This document shows, piece by piece, positions 42,710 through 47,323 of a stretch of 64,000 bases of DNA. The notes below the pieces were generated by a model. It saw only the letters and a list, made by a program, of their open reading frames with translations. It did not search any database and had not been told where the DNA came from. The stretch lies in NCBI RefSeq assembly GCF_000377645.1, contig NZ_KB898472.1:1-64000 (forward strand), written 5' to 3'. The DNA comes from Thiomonas sp. FB-6 (GTDB lineage Bacteria; Pseudomonadota; Gammaproteobacteria; Burkholderiales; Burkholderiaceae_C). Both the position numbers and the translations under genes were made by a program. The stretch's first letter is position 1, and every line of letters begins with the position of its first letter.

Positions 42710-43576
42710 TCAACGCGGCCCGCGGCGGGGCTTGGCGCGCGCGGTCCTGCGCACGCGCGGCGATGCCGCCGCCTCGGGCGGCGCGGGGATGCCGGCCGCG
42801 GATTGCAGCGAGGCGATCTGCCCGCGCAGTTCCCCCAGATCGGCGCGCAGGGCCTTCATGTCGCGGTAGATCTCGTGCTGCAGGCGCCGTTCGCCTTCGC
42901 CGATCAGGAAGGCCGCCACCGAGGCCGTCACCAGCGAGAACACCGCGTAGCCGACCACCACCACCAGCACCGCCAGCAGGCGCGACGAGGTCGCGGTGGG
43001 CACGATGTCGCCGTAGCCGATGGTGGCCGCGGTGGTGAAGGCCAGCCAGAGCCCGTCGTCGAAGGTGTGCGCGGTGGGCTCGAGCCAGTAGAAGCCCAGC
43101 CCCGCCAGCAGCACCGCGCCGGTGCCCAGCGCGAAGGCATAGGCCACGGCGTTGGCCGCCACCATGCGCCGCAGCCCGCTGAGCATGCGGGCGAACACCA
43201 GGCCCACGAAGGCGGCGCGCGCCAGGCGCACCAGCGGGATCCATTCGCTGTCCAGGCCCATCAGCGCAAGGCCCGAAGCGAGCACGATGAACAGGTTCAG
43301 CCAGTTGTACAGCAGGTAGCGCAGGCGCTGGCGGCCGAGCATCAGCATGGCCGCGGTCTCCAGCGCGAAGGCGCCGAAGATCAGCGCGTCCATCACCACG
43401 CCCAGCCCGCGCAGCGGATGCCCGGGCTGCAATTCCTCGAGGTAGAAGGAGGGAACGGCCAGCAGCGCGATGCCGATCATCAGGGGGTGCAGGCGCTTTT
43501 CCAGCGCGTACACGCGCGCCGGTTCGCCCGGCGGCGCGCCGTTGAGCCCCATCCAGAACACCAGGTCCAGCGCCAT
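42710..43576 (-). CDS. Voltage-gated-like potassium ion channel
   Basis: A 288-residue protein with six predicted helices: an S1-S4-like region with arginines (RLARAAFVGLVFARMLSGLRR) and a pore region carrying the potassium selectivity filter TIGYGD near residue 180. A short C-terminal coiled segment and an Arg/Ala tail follow. It has no RCK or cyclic nucleotide domain. The ATG at 43576 is chosen because the family starts near here (MALDLVFWMGLNG). It lies downstream of the CbiX-YbiB gene on the same strand, 110 bases away. Confidence 0.85.
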   Translation of the reverse strand: MALDLVFWMGLNGAPPGEPARVYALEKRLHPLMIGIALLAVPSFYLEELQPGHPLRGLGVVMDALIFGAFALETAAMLMLGRQRLRYLLYNWLNLFIVLASGLALMGLDSEWIPLVRLARAAFVGLVFARMLSGLRRMVAANAVAYAFALGTGAVLLAGLGFYWLEPTAHTFDDGLWLAFTTAATIGYGDIVPTATSSRLLAVLVVVVGYAVFSLVTASVAAFLIGEGERRLQHEIYRDMKALRADLGELRGQIASLQSAAGIPAPPEAAASPRVRRTARAKPRRGPR

Positions 43577-43686: not shown

Positions 43687-45057
43687 TCAAGCGGAGGCGA
43701 TTTCTCCGGGGCTCCCGGCACGGCCCAGCTGCGCGAACAGCGTCTCGATGCGCTGCAACTGGGCCTGCAGGGCCTGCGGCGGCGGCTCACGCCCCTCGAG
43801 TACGTCGCGCGTCCACGCCAGCGTGTCGGCGGGGCTTTGCGCCGCGGCCCGCGCGCGCAGCGCCACGGCCTCGTCGCCGGGGGGCGCCTCGTCGGCCTCG
43901 CTGTGCACGCATCCCTGGGCGTCCACCCGCAGCCACTGCGAGGGGCGCTCCGGATGGGCCGGCACCTCGCCCTCGCAGCCGCGCGAGATCAGCGCCGGCT
44001 GGCGCAGCGCGCCCAGCACGTGGGTCATGCGCGGCGCGTAATCCGCGTGGGTGTAGCTGGCCAGCAGCAGGCTGGGTCCGCGCAGCGGTGCCAGCAGCTT
44101 GGCCACCGCGTGGGCGCTGTTGCGCACGCCCAGCTCCTCGCGCCAGCGCAGCACCCGGCGCAGCTCGGGGCTGAGCTGCTCCAGGTCCAGGTACACGGCG
44201 TCGCCGCGCTCCAGCGCCTGCGCGGCCTGCTCGCGCCCGTCGGCCACCGGCAGGCTCAGCGCGCTCCACAGCGGCAGCGTGTGCGCGCGCCCGTCCGGCT
44301 GCTGCGCGCCCAGCACCAGCACCGGCACGCCGCGGCGCCTCAGCAGCTCGGCCAGCAGCGGCACCTGGTTGGGCAGGCGCCGCGTGCCGTTGAGGCTGCT
44401 CAGGCACACCGCCGCGCGCGAGGTCGGCAGCGCGGGCACGGCGTCCAGCACCGCGCGGGTGAAGCCTTCCAGTTCCTCGGCGCTTTCCGATTTCATGCGC
44501 AAGGCCACCAGCGCGGCGCCCGCCTGGGCGTCGCCGAGCTGGCCTTGCAGCAGCCACTCCATCAGCGTGCGCGCCTGGCCGGACTCGAGGTCGCGGCTGC
44601 CGCGCGGGCCGCGGCTCAGCGCATGCAGCCACGGGAGCACCTGCGTGCGCGCGGGTGGCGTGGAAGGGGCGGGCAGGGTGTCGAGGCCCTGCAGCGCATG
44701 CCGGGCCAGGGCCTGGATCACCAGCTCGCTGTCGCCGGCGGCCGGAAGCAGCTCCACGCGCATGCCGGGATGGAGCTCGTGCACACGCCGCAGTTCCTGG
44801 GTGACGTCGCGCTCCAGGTGGGCGCCGGTGCCCAGGAACAAGGGCACCAGGCACAGCTGCTCGCAGCCTTCGCGCGCGGCGCCCTCCAGCGCCTGGCCCA
44901 GCGAGGGTTCCATGGCTTCCAGGAAACACAGGGCCACGTCGGCGTCCGGGCGCATCGTGCGCAACGCGGCAAGCACCGACTGGAAGGGTTCGGCCCATTG
45001 CGGGCGCCGGGATCCGTGGGCGAGCAGAAGCAGGCGGGCAGGGCGGGAAGCTTGCAT
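43687..45057 (-). CDS. Fusion of CbiX-type sirohydrochlorin chelatase domain and YbiB/TrpD2-like domain
   Basis: A 456-residue protein. Residues about 5-122 are a CbiX/SirB-type chelatase domain (LLAHGSRRPQWAEPFQSVL with catalytic His, and PLFLGTGAHLERDV with the second His). Residues about 135-450 match the TrpD2/YbiB family: QARTLMEWLLQGQLGDAQAGAALVALRMK, SLNGTRRLPN in place of the TrpD GTGGD motif, LGVRNSAHAVAKLL, and ALRQPALISRGCEGEVP. YbiB is related to anthranilate phosphoribosyltransferase but binds nucleic acid and lacks that activity. Elsewhere the two are separate genes. The frame continues without a stop across the join. What the fusion does is unknown. It is read against the GT2 gene, divergent with a 168-base gap. 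Confidence 0.85.
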   Translation of the reverse strand: MQASRPARLLLLAHGSRRPQWAEPFQSVLAALRTMRPDADVALCFLEAMEPSLGQALEGAAREGCEQLCLVPLFLGTGAHLERDVTQELRRVHELHPGMRVELLPAAGDSELVIQALARHALQGLDTLPAPSTPPARTQVLPWLHALSRGPRGSRDLESGQARTLMEWLLQGQLGDAQAGAALVALRMKSESAEELEGFTRAVLDAVPALPTSRAAVCLSSLNGTRRLPNQVPLLAELLRRRGVPVLVLGAQQPDGRAHTLPLWSALSLPVADGREQAAQALERGDAVYLDLEQLSPELRRVLRWREELGVRNSAHAVAKLLAPLRGPSLLLASYTHADYAPRMTHVLGALRQPALISRGCEGEVPAHPERPSQWLRVDAQGCVHSEADEAPPGDEAVALRARAAAQSPADTLAWTRDVLEGREPPPQALQAQLQRIETLFAQLGRAGSPGEIASA

Positions 45058-45171: not shown

Positions 45172-45225
45172 ACTATCGATTCGGGAACACGGCCGGGGGG
45201 CATGCGTGAAACCAAGGAGTCCATC

Positions 45226-46548
45226 ATGCGTTTGTCTTCCGCGGCCGGGCGCGAGCCGGCCGACCTGCTGCTGGCCGGAGCGCTGCTGCTGGCAGTAGGC
45301 CTGCTGTTCTATCTCGGGCTGGCGCGCCATGCCCTTGAACCGCTGCTGCTCGCGCTGCATCGCGAAGGCTGGCGGCGCATCGTGCTGGAGCCGGCGCTGG
45401 TGCTCGGCTACCTGGGGCTGGGCCTGAGCGCGCTGCGCGTGGCGCTGTGGGCCGCGTACCGGCCGGTGGCGTGCGCCTCGCACGCCGAGGCTCCGATGCT
45501 CACCGTGGTCATTCCCGCCTACAACGAAGGGGCGATGGTGGCGCGTTCCATCGATTCGGTGGCGGGCGCGGACTATCCGCCCGGGCGCCTGCAGGTGCTG
45601 GCGGTGGACGACGGCAGCCGCGACGACACCTGGGAGCACATGCAGCGCGCCGCCGCGCGCCACCCGGGCATCGTGCGCACCCTGCGATTCGCGGCCAACC
45701 GCGGCAAGCGTGCCGCGCTGGCCGCTGGCTTCCGCGAGGCGCGCGGGGAGGTGTTGGTGACCATCGACTCGGACAGCGTGATCGAGCCCGGCACGCTGCT
45801 GGCCATGGTCGCGCCCTTCCGCGATGCGCGCGTGGGCGCGGTGGCCGGGCGCGTGGCGGTGCTCAACCGCTTCCAGGGCCTGATTCCGCGCATGCTGCAC
45901 GTGCGCTACGCGCTGAGTTTCGATTTCCTGCGCGCCGCCCAATCCACGCTGGGCAACGTGGTGTGCTGCCCGGGCGCGCTGTCGGCCTACCGCGCCAGCG
46001 CGGTGCGCCGCGCGCTGCCGGCCTGGCTCGACCAGCGCTTTCTCGGCCAGCCTTGCACCATCGGCGAGGATCGGGCGATGACCAACCACATGTTCGAACT
46101 GGGCTACGACGTGCGCTACCAGAGCAATGCGGTGGTGCACACGATGGCTCCCACCAGCTACCGCGGCCTGTGCAGGATGTTCCTGCGCTGGAGCCGCAGC
46201 CAGTTGCGCGAGGACTGGCGCCTGCTGGGCCTGCTCGGCTCGCGCCCGCTGCCGGCACGCCTGGTGGCGGGCCTGGAACTGCTCGCCACCGACCTGGGCT
46301 ACGTGTTCGGGCTGGGGGCGCTGGCGCTGGCCGCGCACGCCGCCGTCGGCGAGCCGAGGGTGCTGGGCTACATGGCCGCGGCGGTGGCGCTGGGCGCGGC
46401 CCCCGGCGCGCTGTACTTCCTGCGCATGGAGCGCTCCATGGAATGGCTGTACGGCCTGGCCTACGGCTACTTCTCGGCGCTCGCGCTGTTCTGGATCATG
46501 CCCTACGCGGCCGTCACGGTGCGTGCCAGGGGCTGGCTGACGCGTTGA
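45226..46548 (+). CDS. Processive family-2 glycosyltransferase (NodC/hyaluronan-synthase-like)
   Basis: A 440-residue membrane glycosyltransferase. Two N-terminal helices precede a GT2 domain with VVIPAYNEG near residue 90, the DSDS (DxD-type) motif near 185, GED near 277 and FLRWSRSQLRED, which matches the QxxRW-type product motif in NodC and hyaluronan synthases. Three or more helices close the protein. This pattern is typical of enzymes making beta-linked polysaccharide chains. No other polysaccharide genes surround it, so the product is unknown. ATG 45226 has AAGGAG six bases upstream. The last 35 bases overlap the convergent IclR gene. Confidence 0.83.
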   Translation: MRLSSAAGREPADLLLAGALLLAVGLLFYLGLARHALEPLLLALHREGWRRIVLEPALVLGYLGLGLSALRVALWAAYRPVACASHAEAPMLTVVIPAYNEGAMVARSIDSVAGADYPPGRLQVLAVDDGSRDDTWEHMQRAAARHPGIVRTLRFAANRGKRAALAAGFREARGEVLVTIDSDSVIEPGTLLAMVAPFRDARVGAVAGRVAVLNRFQGLIPRMLHVRYALSFDFLRAAQSTLGNVVCCPGALSAYRASAVRRALPAWLDQRFLGQPCTIGEDRAMTNHMFELGYDVRYQSNAVVHTMAPTSYRGLCRMFLRWSRSQLREDWRLLGLLGSRPLPARLVAGLELLATDLGYVFGLGALALAAHAAVGEPRVLGYMAAAVALGAAPGALYFLRMERSMEWLYGLAYGYFSALALFWIMPYAAVTVRARGWLTR

Positions 46549-47323
46549 GGGCGGCGCCCAGGCGCCGCGACAGCAGCTGGGCATAGGAGCGCAGGGTCTG
46601 CGCCAGCGGGCCGCCGGGGTCGGAGTCGAAGGCCGGCGTGGGGCCGATGAGGGTCAGCGCCAGCACCATGTGGCCGCGCTGGTCGAACACGGGCGCCGAC
46701 ATCGCGCTGATGCCGGGCAGCAGGCCGTCCACGCTCAGGCTCACGCCCTCGGCGCGTACGCGCGCCAGCTCGGCCTCGAACTCCGGATCCGGCGCGCTCT
46801 GGCCGGGCACCTCGCGCAGGCGCTCGCGAGCGTGGAAGGCGGCGAAGGCCTTGCCAGTGGCCGTGTTGCGCAGGCTGGTCACGGTGCCCGGGCGCATGCG
46901 CACGTGCACCGCGCTGGGCGCTTCCTCGATGCGCACGATGGTCGGCCCGTGGTTGCCCCACAGCGCGATGGCGGCGCTCTGCGCGGTGGCCTGCGCGAGT
47001 TCCACCAGCACGGGCTCGGCCAGGCGCACGGGGTCGTATTGCTGCAAGCTGATCAGGCCCAGCTCCATGGCCAGCGGCCCCAGGCCGTAGCGGCCGGTGG
47101 AGTCCTGGTCGATGAGTCCGAGCTTGCCGAAGCTGACCAGGTAAGGGTGCGCCTTGCCCGGGGCCATGTCGGCGGCCTGCGCCAGTTCCTTCAGGGACAG
47201 CGCGCGTCCATGGTCGGCGAGGGCGCGCAACAGGCGCCCGCCCACCTCGATGCTCTGGATGCCTCGCGAGCCGCGCGCGGGGGCGTCCTCGTCGGAATCG
47301 GGTTTATACCTATGCTGATTCAT
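46514..47323 (-). CDS. IclR-family transcription regulator
   Basis: A 269-residue regulator: an N-terminal winged helix-turn-helix (residues about 22-85; LSLKELAQAADMAPGKAHPYLVSF) and a C-terminal effector-binding IclR domain (residues about 100-255). It faces the monooxygenase gene across a 116-base gap, which contains an AT-rich segment and two GATTCATT direct repeats (47317-47324 and 47351-47358) that may be operator or promoter elements. It probably controls the monooxygenase-DUF2783-Liv block, inferred from position. Confidence 0.92.
   Translation of the reverse strand: MNQHRYKPDSDEDAPARGSRGIQSIEVGGRLLRALADHGRALSLKELAQAADMAPGKAHPYLVSFGKLGLIDQDSTGRYGLGPLAMELGLISLQQYDPVRLAEPVLVELAQATAQSAAIALWGNHGPTIVRIEEAPSAVHVRMRPGTVTSLRNTATGKAFAAFHARERLREVPGQSAPDPEFEAELARVRAEGVSLSVDGLLPGISAMSAPVFDQRGHMVLALTLIGPTPAFDSDPGGPLAQTLRSYAQLLSRRLGAALNASASPWHAP

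Follow-up and report, generated by a model that had tools for sequence, protein, structure and literature searches.

The locus described here raises the question of what role a tetrapyrrole chelatase might play when it is made as one protein with a domain whose relatives bind nucleic acid. The window, a stretch of 64,000 nucleotides from a 4.2-Mb genome of the genus Thiomonas in 79 contigs, contains a gene in which a CbiX-type chelatase domain is continued by a domain of the widespread YbiB/TrpD2 family (Table 1). An earlier note, made from the sequence of the window, had proposed that a protein of this kind would be a new type of sensor or chaperone.

Domain structure of the fusion protein

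The reading frame extends on the minus strand from an ATG at position 45057 to a stop codon at 43687-43689; upstream of this ATG the frame is open for at least 100 more codons, and the exact start codon is uncertain. Both halves score above the cut-offs of their models, the first against PF01903 (83.8 bits, E 1.3e-23, cut-off 22) and the second against NF006005 (246.6 bits, E 3.7e-73, cut-off 185), which bears out the earlier description of a fusion in one frame. It had also been stated that neither a stop nor a start lies at the junction. There is indeed no in-frame stop codon between the halves, but an in-frame GTG (codon 140) and ATG (codon 166) do exist; neither is preceded, by eye, by a stretch resembling a ribosome site, and a separate YbiB protein is therefore not expected from the fusion gene. 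The fusion protein matched no PADLOC family, and a defence function was rejected.

Table 1. Features of the fusion gene and its surroundings (positions in the window)
Feature	Position	Strand	Remarks
cbiX-ybiB fusion gene, 456 aa	43687..45057	-	one ORF; PF01903 and NF006005 matches
CbiX/SirB-type class II chelatase domain, residues 14-118	44704..45018	-	PF01903; H14 and H80
Linker, residues 119-143	44629..44703	-	pLDDT <50 at 130-132; differs among fused genomes
YbiB/TrpD2 domain, residues 144-442	43732..44628	-	NF006005; R226 and R257
Ion-channel protein, downstream neighbour	42713..43576	-	PF07885, 2.7e-13; retained in fused and split genomes
GT2 glycosyltransferase, divergent	45202..46548	+	PF00535, PF13641
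IclR-family regulator gene	46514..47323		near cbiX in 7/7 related loci

In the N-terminal half, H14 and H80, which we take to be the catalytic histidines of a class II chelatase, align with the conserved histidines of SirB and CfbA in an alignment that also included the CbiX protein 3lyh, as the earlier note had anticipated; we take SirB and CfbA to be the names of the aligned sirohydrochlorin ferrochelatase and cobaltochelatase structure chains. SirB, 3lyh and CfbA are also the nearest solved structures for this part of the protein. With the short forms of SirB/CbiX (CfbA, 3lyh) it shares the PF01903 domain, both conserved histidines and a single domain of about 120 amino acids, and differs from them by its second, unrelated C-terminal domain. 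For the CbiX of Paracoccus, two histidines are reported to be essential, and the protein is reported to have complemented an E. coli cysG mutant carrying cobA (PMC4063343).

The predicted model of the whole protein has a mean pLDDT of 86, with high values in the TrpD2 half, lower ones in the CbiX half (about 63-85 per block over residues 1-130), and values below 50 at the linker and at the C-terminal end. Since the best 50 Foldseek matches are all YbiB or TrpD, it is from sequence that a fold was assigned to the CbiX half. Two known multidomain enzymes invite comparison. CysG, the trifunctional siroheme synthase, is likewise a siroheme enzyme with several activities reported on one chain (PMC4063343), but its N-terminal domain, TIGR01470, is unmatched in this Thiomonas genome. 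The CbiX-precorrin-8X methylmutase fusion NF004449 also combines a CbiX-type domain with a partner; the match is weak (30.6 bits, cut-off 298), the partner is other than YbiB, and the pathway, going by the name, is that of cobalamin.

In the C-terminal half, the sequence SLNGTRRLPN, which the earlier note had singled out as replacing GTGGD, is present at residues 221-230, where E. coli YbiB has SYNGARKQAN. GTGGD is presumably the PRPP motif of TrpD, replaced in the TrpD2/YbiB half. SLNGTRRLPN is, however, the normal TrpD2 signature of the NGxR type, and not a peculiarity of the fusion protein; it has no special meaning here. The TrpD model (anthranilate phosphoribosyltransferase, TIGR01245) reaches only 47.6 bits against a cut-off of 199, and a separate trpD-like gene is present on contig C16 next to trpG- and trpC-like genes (names by eye). 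The nearest structures for this part are the YbiB proteins of E. coli (4muo, 8bfr) and Salmonella (7y3p), and Foldseek aligned the model with 4muo at a TM score of 0.85 by target length. With E. coli YbiB the half shares 32% identity, the fold and the conserved arginines; it differs from both YbiB proteins by the attached chelatase.

These arginines, R226 and R257, correspond in the alignment to R92 and R123 of E. coli YbiB, which are invariant in all 28 aligned YbiB sequences, nas-linked and dinG-linked alike, the alignment containing no PRK09071-type sequence. E. coli YbiB is reported to bind single- and double-stranded DNA, seemingly independently of sequence, as well as the acidic tail of ObgE, R92 and R123 being needed (PMC10123104). 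Among the 34 basic residues of the E. coli protein, 18 are non-basic in the fusion, as counted over the domain as a whole with the groove not singled out. The net charge is -2 in the YbiB half and -3 in E. coli YbiB; both domains are near neutral, and overall charge thus decides nothing.

Distribution and origin of the fusion

A survey of 28 Thiomonas genomes revealed a CbiX match in all of them and a YbiB match in 15, leaving 13 with no YbiB match at E<=1e-10; some of these absences may be gaps, since seven of the 28 genomes are, as the analysis tool counts it, less than 90% complete or more than 5% contaminated. The fused gene is present in four genomes, namely that of the window (G000) and three metagenome bins (G019, G027, G002), so that the same architecture, for which a second genome had been sought, was found in three more. 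In three other genomes (G009, G007, G004) cbiX and ybiB are adjacent at the same place and separated by a stop, and in eight (G011, G014, G024, G001, G013, G005, G026, G017) ybiB lies apart from cbiX.

No further fusion was found among the matches listed from 399 genomes of the family (382 match, with the best ones listed; six of the 399 are Thiomonas), nor did the order, with matches in 97 of 399 genomes, add one; a distant fusion with weak pieces could escape such a search. Of the family and order matches that start before query residue 110, and might therefore be fused, ten were retrieved, and none of these ten has a CbiX match. Among the 80 best ybiB loci, CbiX and YbiB share a frame only at L092, L093 and L095, and no frame with both was found at 40 loci from a PRK09071 search; nowhere in 72,556 plasmid records was 80% or more of the query covered. 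Four fused genomes, with none listed elsewhere in the family or order, indicate that the fusion is neither a frameshift nor widespread. It is a genuine, lineage-limited new architecture built from two known families.

That the join is an artefact of assembly or sequencing is scarcely credible. The three other fused genomes being metagenome bins could be held in its favour, but the four genomes have four different in-frame linker sequences of three lengths, and both halves are under purifying selection, with dN/dS below 0.4 in all four fused pairs compared (CbiX half 0.21-0.27, YbiB half 0.08-0.36). The earlier note had considered that relatives might carry two genes with a stop between them, the single frame being a sequencing frameshift. 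Such two-gene relatives do exist, in three of the 28 genomes, but the frameshift is excluded because the linkers of the fused genomes differ in length and sequence.

In the split genomes, cbiX and ybiB are separated by a stop codon, about 40 nt and an ATG. A 9-bp repeat, RGGCCTSGA, brackets the junction piece in one of them, G007, with copies 117 nt apart; as 117 is a multiple of three, a single deletion there would yield an in-frame join resembling that of G002. The repeat distance is 116 nt in G009, and in G004 the second copy is altered. In the tree built from 7.1 kb of flanking-gene DNA the three split genomes branch among the fused ones, and a fused clade is rejected (AU p 0.00017), also when cbiX and ybiB are added (p 0.00024). 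Such a clade is compatible with the protein tree (p 0.072), and in a purA tree the split genomes also fall within the fused ones, with weak support. The order of split before fused is thus unsupported by the DNA tree, and the genes would have fused either once, with a separation afterwards, or more than once at the same repeat.

Siroheme pathway

The genome of the window encodes CobA twice, once in a nitrate-assimilation cluster, where it was confirmed by domain search, and once beside genes of cys type (named by eye). NirB is present above its cut-off, and a second frame of the siroheme-reductase type, with two NIR_SIR matches, also lies beside the cys-type genes. A search of the genome with the fusion protein as query (E<=1) found no CbiX match other than the fusion itself, the remaining match being the trpD-like gene of contig C16. 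With this as the only CbiX match, with CobA, NirB and a siroheme reductase present and CysG-N/Met8 unmatched, the CbiX half is probably the siroheme ferrochelatase of the cell. Cobalt chelation is less likely, since G000 has two CobA-type matches only, whereas G003 has a separate cobalamin-type cluster (by eye) with a CbiX-like gene of its own.

CobA and CbiX are common in the 28 Thiomonas and 60 family genomes, but no enzyme that would convert precorrin-2 to sirohydrochlorin was recognised in any of them. CobA was found in 26 of the 28 Thiomonas. The CysG-N/Met8/SirC model TIGR01470 had no match in any of the 28 and none above the cut-off in the 60 (three weak ones), while the positive control matched 9 of 14 named genomes. 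Thirteen of the 28 Thiomonas retain CbiX and a siroheme reductase with no YbiB match; YbiB is therefore not required for siroheme as such.

Gene neighbourhoods of ybiB

Every one of the 15 Thiomonas ybiB genes either adjoins or is fused to cbiX (7) or lies in a cobA cluster (8). In the latter group this is mostly a visible nitrate-assimilation cluster, with the order nirB-nirD-nasA-ybiB-cobA in both G011 and G014 (cobA and cbiX of G011 were confirmed by domain search), and in G001 and G017 the contig ends leave only cobA visible next to ybiB. The name nasA stands for NasA-like, the G000 protein scoring below the NasA/NasC cut-offs. In the nas cluster of G000, where domain searches confirmed NirB, CobA, MFS, ANTAR (NasT-like), Rieske and NMT1_2 (NasS-like), the interval from narK to the NasS-like gene lacks the ybiB that G005 and G013 have there.

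Across Thiomonas, ybiB and nas genes, with status assigned by hand, occur together in 13 genomes, ybiB only in two, nas only in one and neither in 12 (Fisher p 7e-5, kinship ignored). When independent pairs were taken on the purA tree, which covers 26 of the 28 genomes, four of six agreed and none opposed (sign test p 0.125), a sample too small to decide. The nas contigs of G026 and G009 match that of G005 at 99.7% and 94.6-97.5% identity, although the purA tree does not place these genomes close together; they may thus have been transferred recently or stem from contamination of bins, and without these two genomes the association would weaken.

Outside the genus, 71 loci were analysed, being the 80 ybiB loci most like the query minus nine from Thiomonas, with gene models built for the analysis; chosen in this way, they are mostly from Burkholderiales. 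cobA is present in 61 of them, in 59 on the same strand and at most 500 nt from the ybiB domain, and nirB or a nasA-like gene in 40. At least one of cobA, cbiX, nirB and nasA-like was found in 65 of the 71, and in 43 of the 46 that extend over more than 5 kb to both sides. By our estimate, if a genome of 4-5 Mb carries two copies of cobA, a random gene lies within 500 nt of one of them in well under one case in a hundred. The ybiB gene of E. coli, in contrast, adjoins dinG, as has been reported (PMC10123104), and dinG was seen at none of the 71 loci.

Of 72 genomes sampled across other genera and families, 34 have both YbiB and a NirB match above the cut-off, seven have such a NirB match without YbiB, 12 have YbiB without it, and 19 lack both (Fisher p 1.7e-4, uncorrected for kinship), the presence of YbiB having been copied by hand from the matches listed, to about E 3e-8, some of which cover part of the domain. 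The two genes lie within 7 kb of each other in 18 of the 34, including G059, where the nearby NirB match is partial and below the cut-off; they are far apart on the same contig in five and on different contigs in 11. G097 has ybiB, cobA and cbiX inside about 2.2 kb.

A different setting was found in genus g438 of the Burkholderiales family f20, where all three matching genomes have the order cbiX-ybiB-TauE-NIR/SIR-DUF934-cysH-cysD-CysN-like (loci L274, L275 and L276 of G1085, G1002 and G1058; domain searches were made on L276, and the other two loci and CysN were assigned by eye). Here cbiX and ybiB, with a stop and a short gap between them, are the first genes of a cluster of the assimilatory sulfate-reduction type. 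No nitrate reductase was seen in these 12-kb stretches, so that what they share with the other clusters is siroheme rather than nitrate.

Other lineages were sampled at the 40 loci from the PRK09071 search, chosen by hand to span families out of 142 matching genomes. Genes of the cobA/cysG type are present at ten of them, nirB or nasA-like genes at seven, a dsrN-like gene after trpD2 at three and dinG at two; 18 have none of the marker genes. In L213 and L222 (G695, G683) trpD2 lies between dsrP-like and dsrN-like genes and is preceded by dsrP-/dsrO-like ones, the dsr names coming from inspection by eye and gene order, with NrfD and CobB/CobQ amidotransferase domains confirmed in both loci. 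In nine loci (L203-L211) of family f47, which is presumably Pseudomonas-like, trpD2 follows TusE/DsrC- and DsrH-like genes (DsrH confirmed in one), and a gene of CysG length is found nearby on the opposite strand. The TusE/DsrH-like company would also fit an RNA-related role. What the contexts of ybiB have in common is siroheme, and where ybiB is unfused its neighbours suggest a frequent role of YbiB-type proteins in siroheme metabolism.

Proposed function and alternatives

Siroheme and sirohydrochlorin carry eight carboxylates. In the proposed pathway, CobA would make precorrin-2, sirohydrochlorin would form from it, and the CbiX half, being of the short, single-domain type, would insert iron. 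The TrpD2 half would most likely use its conserved basic groove to hold an octacarboxylate, the product or the substrate, and to pass this ligand on to siroheme enzymes, namely NirB and sulfite reductase; elsewhere TrpD2/YbiB would normally serve siroheme metabolism as a separate gene product. We infer that a basic groove that binds DNA and an acidic peptide, in proteins linked to siroheme, is as expected of an octacarboxylate carrier. We give about an even chance to the reading that the gene encodes the one sirohydrochlorin ferrochelatase that can be recognised in this Thiomonas, fused to a TrpD2/YbiB domain that serves siroheme as a carrier of product or substrate. Counting against siroheme are the 13 of 28 Thiomonas genomes without YbiB, the 18 of 40 loci without markers, the dinG gene beside ybiB of the E. 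coli type, the DNA and ObgE binding reported for E. coli YbiB (PMC10123104), and the 12 of 72 genomes with YbiB and without NirB, together with the seven showing the reverse. It is doubtful whether the wider claim holds that TrpD2/YbiB proteins are siroheme or sirohydrochlorin carriers whose groove evolved for this ligand, the binding of DNA and ObgE being a by-product of their polyanionic nature or a use acquired later and the Thiomonas fusion a chelatase with its own delivery domain.

The join might also be a neutral one between neighbours that shared co-transcription alone, the TrpD2 half keeping a nucleic-acid or ObgE task and riding on the chelatase. This is possible, though on the unlikely side. 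It agrees with the restriction of the fusion to four of 28 genomes, with the two separate genes at the same spot in three relatives, with the repeat of the split genome that would permit an in-frame join by one deletion, and with the binding of DNA and ObgE reported for E. coli YbiB (PMC10123104). Chance hitch-hiking, however, does not explain why ybiB is found beside cbiX, cobA, nirB, a siroheme reductase with cysHD, and dsrN, and the junction offers no likely internal start. The sensor of the earlier note would take the form of a siroheme- or metal-responsive regulator, whose chelatase half would be the sensor of tetrapyrrole or metal and whose TrpD2 half would bind to nucleic acid. R226 and R257 conserve the two arginines that E. 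coli YbiB is reported to need for binding DNA and the acidic tail of ObgE (PMC10123104), and an IclR-family gene lies nearby, as it also does near unfused cbiX. Even so, we regard a regulator as improbable: the reported DNA binding seems independent of sequence, more than half of the basic residues of the E. coli protein (18 of 34) are non-basic in the fusion, the net charges do not discriminate, and the nas cluster already encodes NasT-like ANTAR and NasS-like NMT1_2 proteins. The idea of a new type of sensor found no direct support; a chaperone role is possible. The context points to the supply of siroheme to nitrite and sulfite reductases and not to nucleic acids.

A further alternative, that TrpD2 supplies the missing precorrin-2 dehydrogenase step, would account for the lack of CysG-N/Met8/SirC over the cut-off in the 28 Thiomonas and 60 family genomes, where CobA (26 of 28 Thiomonas) and CbiX (28 of 28) are kept. 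It is nevertheless very improbable. The best 50 fold matches are YbiB/TrpD only, folds in which, to our knowledge, there is no dinucleotide-binding fold; the f47 loci carry trpD2 near a gene of CysG length; 13 of 28 Thiomonas without a TrpD2 match still have CbiX and a siroheme reductase; and Paracoccus CbiX is reported to have complemented the E. coli cysG mutant when cobA was supplied (PMC4063343).

Taken alone, the fusion is a modest finding; with the gene neighbourhoods it becomes a good lead to the function of TrpD2. The fusion and four kinds of siroheme cluster (nas, cys, dsr and cob) together form an independent lead to siroheme handling as the role of YbiB/TrpD2. If the carrier reading is true, YbiB/TrpD2 would be a delivery factor for siroheme, and we know of no factor for this delivery step. 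Our search found no publication linking YbiB or TrpD2 with siroheme or sirohaem; the original description of TrpD2 (J Biol Chem 2015) lay outside that search and may contain a remark on it. The 2023 paper on ObgE states that further studies are needed to reveal the cellular role of YbiB (PMC10123104). The AGeNNT paper reports a DNA helicase as a neighbour of the YbiB cluster, and a search of its main text for siroheme, nitrate and nitrite was negative (PMC5445326).

Other neighbours of the fusion gene

The divergent glycosyltransferase had been regarded as a NodC-like partner, a candidate that was rejected: it is a GT2 protein with 164.7 bits against the NodC model TIGR04242, below the cut-off of 550, and is absent in four of seven related loci (G002, G009, G007, G004). 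It lies between cbiX and iclR in G000, G019, G027, G013, G005 and G023, and is not part of the system. The IclR-family gene was found near cbiX in 10 of the 11 loci compared, fused or unfused.
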